Below are positions 1-4,991 of a stretch of 64,000 nt of DNA, one piece after another. The DNA comes from Psychrobacter arcticus 273-4 (GTDB taxonomy: Bacteria; Pseudomonadota; Gammaproteobacteria; Pseudomonadales; Moraxellaceae): the NCBI RefSeq assembly GCF_000012305.1, contig NC_007204.1, positions 682,001 through 746,000 on the forward strand. The letters are read 5' to 3'. Every line of letters begins with the position of its first letter. The stretch's first letter is position 1. The position numbers and the translations under genes were made by a program. Under the pieces are notes generated by a model, which had not been told where the DNA came from, did no database searches, and saw nothing but the letters and a program-made list of their open reading frames with translations.

Positions 1-1673
<1,673 letters not shown>

Positions 1674-1737
1674 CGAAAATAGTAGGTTAATCGTTATAAA
1701 TAGATGATAATCCTATTAATCATAAAGTAGATAAAGC

Positions 1738-4623
1738 ATGAGTGAAATTATTCTTAAGAAACCAGTCAACGTACTTAACCGTAACGTCAAATTCGATTTG
1801 AAGGACTTTTTTCTTCAAGCATCGTCCACTGTAGCAGGCACTGCAATTCAAGTCGCTACTGCAAATCCTGTAGGTGCGTTGACCAGTATCGTTAAAGGCT
1901 TAGCGAGTACCTCTAAATCAATATACTTAGAAGAAGTTCCAGTAGAAGAGAGGGCTTGGTTGCTTGTTGTGAGTTCTTTAACTCATGCTATCGCCAAGAT
2001 ATTAGAAGATTTTAATGATTTATTTGAAAATAGTATCGAATCTTCTCAACTGAATACAGTTAGCGAGCAAATCACTAACCAAATCAATGAAGTTGAAATT
2101 ACGCTAACAAATGAGTTTTTTAGCAAACCGCATAAATTAGCATTTTTAGAAGACTTCTCTCTTATTTTAGTTAGTTGGCTACAGCAGCTAGGATTAAATG
2201 ATAGTCAAACTAAGTCATTTATTTATCAGTTTAAATCTCAATTTCCGATGTCATTACATTATGAATGGGGTACAAATTCATCTTATTACGCCCTGATAGT
2301 TGAGAAGCTAGATACACCGTTTAACACTGTCAATAGACTGCAAAGACAGGCATCCGAATATCGCTACTGGCTCCAGCAGCAAGTTAATGAACGTATCTTC
2401 GAAGAAGCCTTTGGACTTAGACAAGTATATGTACCTTTAAGAGCTTATTACACACAAAAAACAGATAATGATGGTATTAAAGTCGATGAAAGTAACATAG
2501 AGGCTGAAGGTAGTGAAGTGCTTAACCTTAATAATAAAAATATCAATAAAAAAGTCTGCAATCTGTATGAAGAAATTAATAAATGGCTTAATCAGACTGA
2601 TGTAGAAGATAGCTTGAAAGTTATTAGTGGTGGACCTGGATCAGGTAAATCGTCTTTTGCTAAGATTTTAGCGGCAGAATTAGCTGAAAAATCCGATATA
2701 CCAGTTTTGTTTATACCTTTACATCGTTTTAAAATTAATGGTTATCTACCTGATGCTATTAGGCAGTTTCTTGACAATCACCATATATTAAGTCAAGAGA
2801 ATCTATTAAATGAATTAAATCTTCTTCTCATATTCGACGGTTTGGATGAACTGTCAATGCAGGGTACTAATTCAAAAGATATAGCGAACAATTTCACAGA
2901 AGAATTAAAGGAAGTATTGAGAGAAAAAAGAAGTTTAAACTGGAAATCCATTATCACTGGTCGAGAGCTGTCTATCCAGCAACAGCAAAACAAGTTAAAA
3001 AAGCAGAAGACTATTCTACATTTATTACCATACTTTATTAACGAAGATGATAGGGATGGTTTTGATGATCCCAGTAATTTGTTAGTGGAAGATCAACGTA
3101 ATGATTGGTGGCAGAAATTTGGTGAGCTAAAAAGTGAGGGCTTTGATGGATTACCTGAGATACTAGCAACTGAACATTTGGAGCCTATAACAAAAGAGCC
3201 TTTGCTAAATTATCTTTTATCATTGAGCTATTTGAGACAAGATATAAAATTTACGACAGATACCAACCTCAATCAGATATATGCAGATTTACTAGATTCA
3301 GTCCATGAACGGAAGTATACGGGTAGCCGTACTCATACTGGAATAAGCAATATTGAGAAAGAAAACTTTATACGAATTCTTGAGGAAATTGCATTAGTAG
3401 TTTGGCATGAGAATGGTAGAACCGCTAGTATTGATAAGATCATGGAACGATGTAAAGAGGCTGGAATTGCAAGCTACTTTGAAGAATTTAAAGGCGATGC
3501 AGAATCAGGTGTTATTCGTCTATTAATGGCGTTTTACTTTAGAGAATTTGACGGTAGTCAAGGTGAAAAAACTTTTGAATTTACGCATAAAAGTTTTGGA
3601 GAGTATTTAACAGCAAAACGGATAATGCTGGAATTAGAAATAATGCTAGAGGAAGTTGAGCGTGGTAGAAGTCGTGCAGGCTCTGGCTGGACAGTAGAGT
3701 ATGCATTTGAAAAATGGATAAAAATTTGCGGTGCTCAATATATCTCCTATGAATTAAACCGATTTATAGATGGTGAGTTTAAAATAATGATGTTAAAACA
3801 GAACGGACTAGAAAAAATAAAAAAATATCAGAGTTTAATGATCGAATTGATACAAATGTCAGTAAATGGGCAATCACCTATAAAAAACCTTAGTTTAAGC
3901 TCTTTTAAAGAGGATTTAACATATAGCAATATAGCTGAAATTGATATGTTAATAATACATTCACTATGTGCCAGATATACTAATAATGTGATTAAAAACG
4001 TTAAATATAATGATGAAAAAGCCTTTGATAGCTGGATACATAGGCTAGATTATAATATTGAAGGGCAATTCAATCATCTAGATCTTAGAAAGTGTGACTT
4101 AAGAAATATATTTTTAGGTTGTAATTTTGACTCCACAATACTAGATGATGGTAACTCGATTTTTTCCTCTTTTTTTATGTCAACATTTAAAAATGCAAGT
4201 CTTAAAAATGCCAAACTATACGTTACTAATTTTGAAAATGTAGACTTTGAAGGTGTAAATTTTGAAAACGCAAAACTTATAGAGTCTTCCTTGAAAGGTG
4301 CTAATATAAAAAATGTGTGTCTTTCAGGTGCTAACTTAGAAAGAACGAATTTTACTAAAGTCCAAGCTGAAGGCGCGGACTTCATGATTGCCAACCTTGA
4401 GGATGCTAATTTGAGTGAAGCAAATTTTACGAATACTAATTTCGTAGGTGCTAATTTTAAAAAGGCTAATCTTAATGGCACTGATTTTACTAATTCAAAC
4501 CTTGAAAATGCAAACTTTGAAGGCACTAACCATGAGGATGCTATTTTCACTGGATCAAATTTAAAAGGCACTATTCTAGAAGGTTTATACTCATCAGAAG
4601 ATAAGCTAGAGGAGACATTATGA
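1738..4623 (+). CDS. NACHT-domain STAND NTPase with C-terminal pentapeptide repeats (candidate NLR-like immune protein)
   Basis: 961 residues. Residues 1-240 are mostly helical with no motif I can name. A NACHT-type P-loop ATPase follows: Walker A GGPGSGKSS at 298-306 (K304), Walker B LLLIFDGLDEL at 362-372 (D367, D370, E371), a sensor-1-like TGRE with R409, and the typical NACHT-tail motif FTHKSFGEY at 615-623. Residues about 779-947 are tandem pentapeptide repeats of the A(N/D)(L/F)xx type, predicted to form a right-handed beta-helix. No signal peptide or clear membrane span, so cytosolic. Bacterial NACHT proteins of this architecture include proven phage-defence NLR relatives; here that role is inference. 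More AT-rich and richer in rare codons than its neighbours, suggesting transfer. Its stop overlaps the next start (ATGA). What it senses and its effector activity are unknown. Confidence 0.85.
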   Translation: MSEIILKKPVNVLNRNVKFDLKDFFLQASSTVAGTAIQVATANPVGALTSIVKGLASTSKSIYLEEVPVEERAWLLVVSSLTHAIAKILEDFNDLFENSIESSQLNTVSEQITNQINEVEITLTNEFFSKPHKLAFLEDFSLILVSWLQQLGLNDSQTKSFIYQFKSQFPMSLHYEWGTNSSYYALIVEKLDTPFNTVNRLQRQASEYRYWLQQQVNERIFEEAFGLRQVYVPLRAYYTQKTDNDGIKVDESNIEAEGSEVLNLNNKNINKKVCNLYEEINKWLNQTDVEDSLKVISGGPGSGKSSFAKILAAELAEKSDIPVLFIPLHRFKINGYLPDAIRQFLDNHHILSQENLLNELNLLLIFDGLDELSMQGTNSKDIANNFTEELKEVLREKRSLNWKSIITGRELSIQQQQNKLKKQKTILHLLPYFINEDDRDGFDDPSNLLVEDQRNDWWQKFGELKSEGFDGLPEILATEHLEPITKEPLLNYLLSLSYLRQDIKFTTDTNLNQIYADLLDSVHERKYTGSRTHTGISNIEKENFIRILEEIALVVWHENGRTASIDKIMERCKEAGIASYFEEFKGDAESGVIRLLMAFYFREFDGSQGEKTFEFTHKSFGEYLTAKRIMLELEIMLEEVERGRSRAGSGWTVEYAFEKWIKICGAQYISYELNRFIDGEFKIMMLKQNGLEKIKKYQSLMIELIQMSVNGQSPIKNLSLSSFKEDLTYSNIAEIDMLIIHSLCARYTNNVIKNVKYNDEKAFDSWIHRLDYNIEGQFNHLDLRKCDLRNIFLGCNFDSTILDDGNSIFSSFFMSTFKNASLKNAKLYVTNFENVDFEGVNFENAKLIESSLKGANIKNVCLSGANLERTNFTKVQAEGADFMIANLEDANLSEANFTNTNFVGANFKKANLNGTDFTNSNLENANFEGTNHEDAIFTGSNLKGTILEGLYSSEDKLEETL

Positions 4624-4991
4624 CCATCACCATTTACGGTATCAAATCTTGTAGTACTATGAAAAAGGCATTTGCTAAGCTTGATGAGCTGGGTGTCAAT
4701 TATGATTTTCATGATTATAAAAAACAAGGTGTCGATAAAGAGAGCGTTCAGCGCTGGGTCAAGGATGTTGGTATTGATAAAGTGTTAAACAAGCGTGGCA
4801 CAACGTGGCGCAAGCTGACTGATGAGCAAAAGCAAGTGGCGGATAGCGACGTGGATAAAGCCATTGACTTACTGATCGAAAACACCAGTATGATTAAGCG
4901 TCCAATAGTTGAAGGTGAGCTAACTAACAAAAATAAGCCGATACTATTATGCGGTTATGATGAAGCCGAGTTCGATACAAATTTCGCTTAA
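4620..4991 (+). CDS. ArsC/Spx-family thioredoxin-fold protein (YffB-like)
   Basis: 123 residues, the normal length for the ArsC/Spx/YffB family. It opens with ITIYGIKSCSTMKKA, where family members carry a single reactive Cys after the first strand (here C11), and ends with the family's IKRPIVE segment before a C-terminal tail. YffB-like proteins resemble glutathione-dependent arsenate reductases but usually have no proven arsenate role, and there are no ars genes nearby, so the substrate is unknown. Its ATG lies inside the last codons of the NACHT gene (4-bp overlap), implying co-transcription and translational coupling. A bidirectional terminator follows. Family call is secure, function open. 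Confidence 0.85.
   Translation: MTITIYGIKSCSTMKKAFAKLDELGVNYDFHDYKKQGVDKESVQRWVKDVGIDKVLNKRGTTWRKLTDEQKQVADSDVDKAIDLLIENTSMIKRPIVEGELTNKNKPILLCGYDEAEFDTNFA

Follow-up and report, generated by a model that had tools for sequence, protein, structure and literature searches.

Antiphage immunity by bacterial NACHT (bNACHT) proteins is already known (PMC12169576). In bNACHT02, 12, 25 and 32 a central NACHT ATPase is embedded in a tripartite plan; the proteins of that study end in SNaCT or NCH1 domains and in part begin with a nuclease, and some bNACHT clades have no discernible effector domain. Also known are NNH3 as a Pfam family and NACHT with pentapeptide repeats on one chain, the latter from cyanobacterial metacaspase-NACHT-pentapeptide-WD40 proteins described in 2012 and discussed for programmed cell death (PMC3501461). 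Here we analyse an NNH3-NACHT-pentapeptide gene of Psychrobacter arcticus 273-4, an intact open reading frame (ORF) of 961 codons with an ATG start, at 1738-4623 (stop included) on the + strand of a 64,000-nucleotide stretch of the chromosome (NC_007204.1, positions 682,001 to 746,000; the window). Its product shares the central NACHT domain and tripartite plan of the bNACHT proteins but combines them with NNH3 and a pentapeptide solenoid. In the metacaspase proteins NACHT is likewise followed by pentapeptide repeats, but these have a caspase-like domain, and WD40 after the repeats, whereas the Psychrobacter protein has NNH3 in front and no WD40. The pairing of NNH3 with pentapeptide repeats is itself known, being present in most of 120 listed homologues. 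We put the probability at about three in four that the gene encodes a single-protein immune receptor of the signal transduction ATPases with numerous domains (STAND) type, of the bNACHT kind related to nucleotide-binding leucine-rich-repeat receptors (NLRs), acting by the sensing-to-arrest mechanism proposed below. NACHT and pentapeptide domains are both mentioned in a bacterial setting in PMC10853773, PMC7475262 and PMC3501461. A literature search found no publication testing a NACHT-pentapeptide protein against phage, although most subscription papers lay outside it and absence is unproven.

The domain assignments (all features on the + strand) support an NLR-like architecture. Residues 38-227 (1849-2418), for which the initial annotation had no nameable motif, match NNH3 (NACHT N-terminal helical domain 3, PF22735) with E = 7.9e-28 and 98.3 bits against a curated cut-off of 27, and are predicted to form a helical bundle. 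The NACHT domain (PF05729, residues 295-428, 2620-3021) was matched with E = 3.9e-8 and 33.7 bits (cut-off 26.7); two further Psychrobacter copies, in G027 and G068, score slightly under the cut-off (25.6 and 25.3). When its own genome was searched with the profile, the NACHT domain of this gene gave E = 2.7e-9. A second match there, at G000:C1:2456758-2457036 (L002), is weak and under the curated cut-off. Conservation was assessed in alignment A1, the window protein plus 79 of the 120 listed homologues, hand-picked without fragments and near duplicates, in which some shorter proteins stay; a second alignment, A2, holds the window protein and 63 of 69 usable locus references, L113 and L173 being excluded for stops. 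The complete Walker A (GGPGSGKS, residues 298-305, 2629-2652) and Walker B with GLDE (LLIFDGLDEL, residues 363-372, 2824-2853), both noted at the outset, were borne out: K304, D367, D370 and E371 are unchanged in 80 of 80 rows. The same holds for F613-F620 (FEFTHKSF), which take in most of the FTHKSFGEY motif pointed out earlier (residues 615-623, 3580-3606).

The predicted fold of residues ~197-750 resembles NOD2, NLRP3 and NLRC4, the three best rows showing 15% identity across the aligned part. The P-loop ATPase and the NLR-like core, the latter as modelled, are thus features shared with bNACHT proteins. By this fold the FTHKSFGEY motif may be part of a winged-helix domain (WHD), and residues 631-770 (3628-4047), a helical region with 10-residue means of 91-97 in predicted local distance difference test score, would by their position resemble helical domain 2 (HD2). 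The animal NLRs likewise have a repeat tail behind the core, but theirs is made of leucine-rich repeats and they carry CARD or PYD, where the Psychrobacter protein has a pentapeptide solenoid and NNH3.

The solenoid, or rod, spans about residues 778-952 (4069-4593). PF00805 matches four stretches of the tail (E = 3e-30), and in one phase 28 of the 37 central positions between residues 771 and 952 carry L or F, a count that 0 of 10,000 shuffles matched. The model shows a regular five-residue strand pattern over ~781-946, compatible with the earlier count of about 34 units; tandem A(D/N)LXX-type repeats forming a predicted solenoid place the tail among pentapeptide-repeat proteins. HetL, MfpA, Qnr and AlbG are, in contrast, free pentapeptide proteins without an ATPase fusion. 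The suggestion that the tail might mimic DNA found no support. Net charge is -12 over 187 residues here; it runs from -5 to -18 among the first 25 rows of A1, and for the remaining 55 rows, taken over their last 180 residues, it has a median of -4 and a range of -32 to +11. Because tail charge varies so among relatives, mimicry of the gyrase-inhibitor kind is not implied. Two observations on related tails may be added. Residues 883-943 give a weak hit (E = 1.8e-4, far under cut-off) to the NCBIfam model for HalA, the effector of anti-phage Hailong, which may contain similar repeats. In P0038 (Leucothrix sargassi, 1157 residues) the tail terminates in a long run of identical ANLEG units, which indicates recent coil expansion.

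The gene is accessory. It was found in five of 105 Psychrobacter genomes (E <= 1e-20), in all five between leuS and arsC. In the window these anchors are the 5' part of leuS (leucyl-tRNA synthetase; 1-1567, - strand, an open frame with its start codon at 1567 that continues beyond the window) and arsC (4620-4991, + strand; Spx/ArsC family, 123 residues, TIGR01617 above cut-off). A census of arsC neighbourhoods defined the interval between their start codons (1568-4619, no strand) as a variable slot. arsC was matched in 103 of the 105 genomes (E <= 1e-15) and leuS adjoins it in 99; leuS was not found beside arsC in the other four, two of whose stretches stop at a contig end near arsC. In these 99 genomes the slot holds a short gap of 135-410 bp (85 genomes, one of which, G070, contains a cargo remnant), an ORF of ~205 codons (eight), one other ORF (one) or the NACHT gene (five). 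In a LeuS tree, built from N-terminal fragments, midpoint-rooted and shown without support values, the nearest genome of every carrier is without the gene. In wider samples, NNH3 occurred in one of 370 genomes of the class, the window's own, and among 299 genomes of the family six match at E <= 1e-3, of which the five passing the cut-off are the same five carriers. Base composition agrees with the earlier remark that the gene is unlike its neighbours, GC in 1-kb windows being 0.31-0.35 over the gene vs 0.37-0.48 (mostly 0.42-0.48) clear of it in the first 20 kb.

The other main cargo of the slot was found in G049, G028, G075, G035, G083, G014, G066 and G071 (L013, L019, L020, L024, L028, L041, L042 and L087), while G070 (L045) has it in decayed form and G055 (L084) has a distant relative of it. 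The ~205-codon protein is an STM3941-like membrane protein, two members matching with E = 1e-8 and 2.7e-10 (35.2 and 40.4 bits, cut-off 40), and may also be a conflict gene.

Comparison of occupied with unoccupied sites shows how the slot changes hands. Between the window's genome (G000) and the empty site of G012, similarity stops at ~1651 on the left and on the right covers 4609-4619, the arsC ribosome-binding site. The DNA of carrier G068 aligns with that of its close relative G070 at 91.7% identity between 7613 and 3025 bases upstream of arsC; from there to 14 bases before arsC no match is seen, and from that point onward identity is 95.1-97.7%, with +827 to +1206 unmatched. In G070 the slot holds the decayed 205-codon gene (78% over 51 residues) and in the next relative, G014, an intact one. 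In the carriers other than G068, similarity to the nearest empty site extends 84-151 bases past the leuS start. A search of the slot for repeats revealed neither an inverted repeat nor a flanking direct repeat, the direct repeats seen being two within the rod and one weak pair. The varying breakpoints and the lack of such repeats are compatible with exchange by homologous recombination via the conserved flanking genes.

Exchange also occurs within the gene. Between G000 and G023 the number of synonymous substitutions per synonymous site (dS) is 0.12 for the rod and 0.23 for the preceding helical region, vs 0.71, 0.89 and 1.35 in the flanking leuS, argB and arsC; in the remainder of the gene it is 0.75-0.88 for the ATPase core, 0.38 for NNH3 and 0.39 for the last 26 codons. 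The share of identical codons at conserved residues, taken in windows of 80 codons, is 0.91-0.96 for windows starting at 681-841, vs 0.63-0.70 in the genes on either side (p as low as 3e-9), and flank-like (0.63-0.71) for those starting at 361-601. G095 and G068 show the converse: dS is 0.22 in the N-terminal domain vs 0.97 in leuS, and windows starting at 1-161 give 0.86-0.93 vs 0.56-0.63 in the flanks, falling to 0.39-0.62 from about residue 245 on. G000 and G023 thus share a tail and G095 and G068 an N-terminus; N- and C-terminal modules have been exchanged separately, with breakpoints near residue 240, in the linker, and near 640-680. The helical region lies within the exchanged C-terminal module. 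Mean identity in the first 25 rows of A1, which are more than 50% identical to the query and, where named, Psychrobacter, is 0.68 for NNH3, 0.44 for the short linker, 0.73 for NACHT, 0.76 after NACHT, 0.60 for the helical region and 0.45 for the rod. P0014 and P0017 are even identical in NACHT (1.00) with a rod identity of 0.38, but protein mosaics among the P rows may include assembly chimeras, so the case for module exchange rests on dS, the codon windows and a comparison from an independent lineage.

That lineage is the Nostocales; many relatives are located in cyanobacteria. In three Nostocales records (L122, L147, L185) the gene follows the same 705-708-codon gene. The three proteins are 0.88-0.95 identical in the N-terminus, core, helical region and last 20 residues, and 0.61-0.69 in the rod, with 25-54 gapped positions. 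Over all 80 rows of A1 the standard deviation of length is 15 before the FTHKS motif vs 58 after it, truncated proteins included, as they are in the tail-length range of 111-562. The neighbouring gene lies at 6555-8681 in L122, 6549-8666 in L147 and 6555-8681 in L185; its product has RDD, HEAT-like and pentapeptide domains in L122 and is a possible membrane partner in Nostocales.

One may argue that nothing selects for sensor diversity: the slot would be a permissive, neutral gap, and the mosaic a product of ordinary homologous recombination. The differing left breakpoints of the carriers, the missing repeats and a cargo limited to two kinds plus one divergent ORF are what this explanation expects. 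Against it, the rod is the most variable main domain in two unrelated lineages, and the windows of leuS, arsC and argB are less young than the exchanged modules. We consider neutrality unlikely, though a contender to be taken seriously; it is compatible with a defence role, and its odds overlap with those of the immune receptor. Its variability, the highest of any main domain, and its transfer as part of a module make the rod the likely sensor.

Some relatives lie in phage context. In IMG/VR, relatives occur on 14 loci. Two of these are close and have both an NNH3 and a pentapeptide domain; the first (L210) scores above the NACHT cut-off, and in the second (L211) NACHT is not listed at E <= 1e-4. 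On the first contig (L190/L210 are one contig) a full-length relative of 973 residues and 34% identity lies between the CI repressor and the integrase of a P2-like Vibrio prophage. Small ORFs aside, the order is terminase, portal, gpA-like nickase, CII-like regulator, CI repressor, a 455-residue protein, the NNH3-NACHT-pentapeptide protein, a NOV_C protein, a 289-residue ORF and integrase. Identity to Vibrio phage vB_ValM-yong1 is 96% in the portal, and to Vibrio phage L9-1 it is 93% in the integrase. In P2-related Vibrionaceae phages the interval between cI repressor and integrase is an antiviral hotspot (Rousset and colleagues, PMC9122126); here it is occupied by a relative of the same architecture, whereas the Psychrobacter copy is chromosomal and lies between leuS and arsC, with no phage gene seen beside it. 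The corresponding interval holds a cytosine methyltransferase and four hypothetical genes in L9-1 and one hypothetical gene in yong1; in ValB1MD-2, where CI is not annotated, an adenine methylase and others stand beside the integrase. On the second contig (L191/L211) an integrase, an HsdR_N-type endonuclease and a CI-like repressor surround the gene. Behind the gene in Vibrio sinaloensis (L186) comes a broken integrase whose pieces are 59-62% identical to that of L210. The Hymenobacter gene (L183) adjoins an integrase that shares 42% identity with the L211 one, and a CI-like match lies ~4 kb downstream. These two are the only ones of 80 loci (L110-L189) to match any of the eleven phage proteins used as queries. 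Eleven IMG/VR contigs (L192-L202, ~10-82 kb) encode a NACHT-pentapeptide protein that is more distant (22% identity) and has identical match values in all of them, possibly one viral population sampled repeatedly; an NNH3 match is not listed in L194, the one contig of these that was scanned. Of the plasmid and phage records with a match (101 and 50), none has 80% of the protein covered at a single place, and most of 40 listed matches hit the tail only.

Taken together, the gene is accessory, recombining and NLR-like and has a phage-borne relative, so an immune receptor against phages or other mobile elements is the best reading; judged from sequence, it is probably a phage-defence receptor with the rod as variable sensor. 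The proposal of the initial annotation, an NLR-like protein that is probably antiphage, is in this way supported indirectly, through predicted fold, patchy presence, exchange of slot and modules, and the phage-borne relative. At rest, the NACHT-WHD-HD2 core would hold ADP, with the C-terminal part keeping it closed. A phage-made or phage-altered component would be bound by the pentapeptide solenoid jointly with the preceding helical region; upon exchange for ATP the core would open, oligomerize and cluster the N-terminal NNH3 bundles. Once clustered, NNH3 would bring the infected cell to a halt, the simplest routes being an action on the membrane and a scaffold role in which it recruits a host factor. 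We infer ligand sensing, oligomerization, cell killing and the action of NNH3 from this architecture. NNH3 stands at the N-terminus and is, because of that position, the likely output domain. Since the neighbours of relatives do not recur, a single-gene system is likely.

A sub-case of this receptor, with overlapping odds, makes NNH3 a mere adaptor that recruits an effector encoded elsewhere, so that the gene alone would not be a complete system. The conserved positions of NNH3 are mostly hydrophobic and aromatic, with neither an evident catalytic pattern nor an enzyme-like fold match, and STAND adaptor domains that recruit separate effectors have been proposed (PMC8195603, PMC10907252). Yet neighbour families hardly recur, the commonest Pfam family occurring in four of 140 near ORFs; in Psychrobacter the neighbours leuS and arsC occur with or without the gene; and clade 14 bNACHT proteins protect from phage with no discernible effector domain (PMC12169576). 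We therefore doubt that NNH3 is an adaptor only.

Several results weigh against the immune receptor as proposed. The comparison of the NNH3 model with solved structures gave no convincing relative, and its conserved residues lack an evident catalytic pattern. Up to E = 1 a PADLOC (2023) scan of the protein returned mad8 (E = 6.9e-6) and TRIP13 (E = 0.0017) only, both weak and over the P-loop region; Avs models form part of PADLOC. A defence island was sought and rejected: at E <= 1e-15 the 140 near ORFs matched 51 PADLOC families and the 140 far ORFs 43, counted as families and not proteins and with 25 shown each, which is no enrichment (near, the nearest-first 140 of 229 ORFs within 2.2 kb; far, a random 140 of 215 beyond 5 kb; 100-900 residues, 56 of 80 loci). 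The other slot cargo, the STM3941-like membrane protein, is not known to be a defence gene. Codon-level module exchange is limited to two cases, in one of which, G000 vs G023, windows nearer the N-terminus are also somewhat raised (0.70-0.88), and recombination may act on non-immune genes as well. Homologues at the same locus in all related genomes had been named as the finding that would speak against defence, and within the genus the locus is indeed constant, but only five of 105 genomes carry the gene.

The protein could also be a STAND regulator of signalling or transcription that uses its ATPase, like MalT or AfsR, for host physiology and not against phages. Bacterial STAND ATPases have mainly been studied as transcription regulators (PMC7159879), and many relatives are cyanobacterial. 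However, no DNA-binding domain was found among the 21 Pfam matches up to E = 1 of the window protein, and very patchy presence, module swaps and phage carriage would be unexpected of a regulator, which we regard as improbable.

Its closest neighbour deserves brief mention. The NACHT stop overlaps the arsC start as ATGA in five of five carriers, so translation of the two is probably coupled, and the end of the NACHT coding sequence contains the ribosome-binding site of arsC (window 4600-4640). An exact TATAAT within the last 70 bases before arsC is present in 56 of 85 short gaps, in none of eight slots with the 205-codon ORF and in none of the five carriers; as it is missing there, arsC is probably on the NACHT transcript. 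A promoter scan was uninformative (17 sites vs 14.8 expected). Despite this linkage, a partnership with the ArsC/Spx-like protein in one redox or stress operon is very improbable, because arsC, present in 103 of 105 genomes, does not need a gene present in five; its absence from the 25 most frequent of 131 Pfam neighbour families of relatives says little.

For the immune receptor a wider reading, which we hold tentatively and at somewhat less than even odds, is that of a bacterial NLR family in which phages are recognized via a pentapeptide solenoid, recognition is diversified by recombination, and sensor and output modules are exchanged separately between species in a fixed slot beside leuS, as a prokaryotic counterpart of the allelic series of plant NLRs. 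No diversity-generating retroelement would be involved. The NACHT/CLec sensors of multicellular bacteria also join a STAND core to a variable C-terminal domain, but there such a retroelement mutates a lectin fold (PMC10907252), whereas in the Psychrobacter family recombination swaps modules and pentapeptide coils are gained or lost. Among the titles and abstract openings searched, which leave most subscription papers outside, none describes such module exchange in NACHT-pentapeptide proteins. Should the rod be the sensor, the recognition surface could be read from sequence thanks to the regular geometry of the rod. Two receptors with a common tail and two with a common N-terminus occur naturally, and these mosaics offer a ready means of telling which module senses and which gives the output. 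In the leuS-arsC slot a defence-like gene is traded beside a housekeeping gene, and surveys that rely on neighbouring defence genes would miss such cases.

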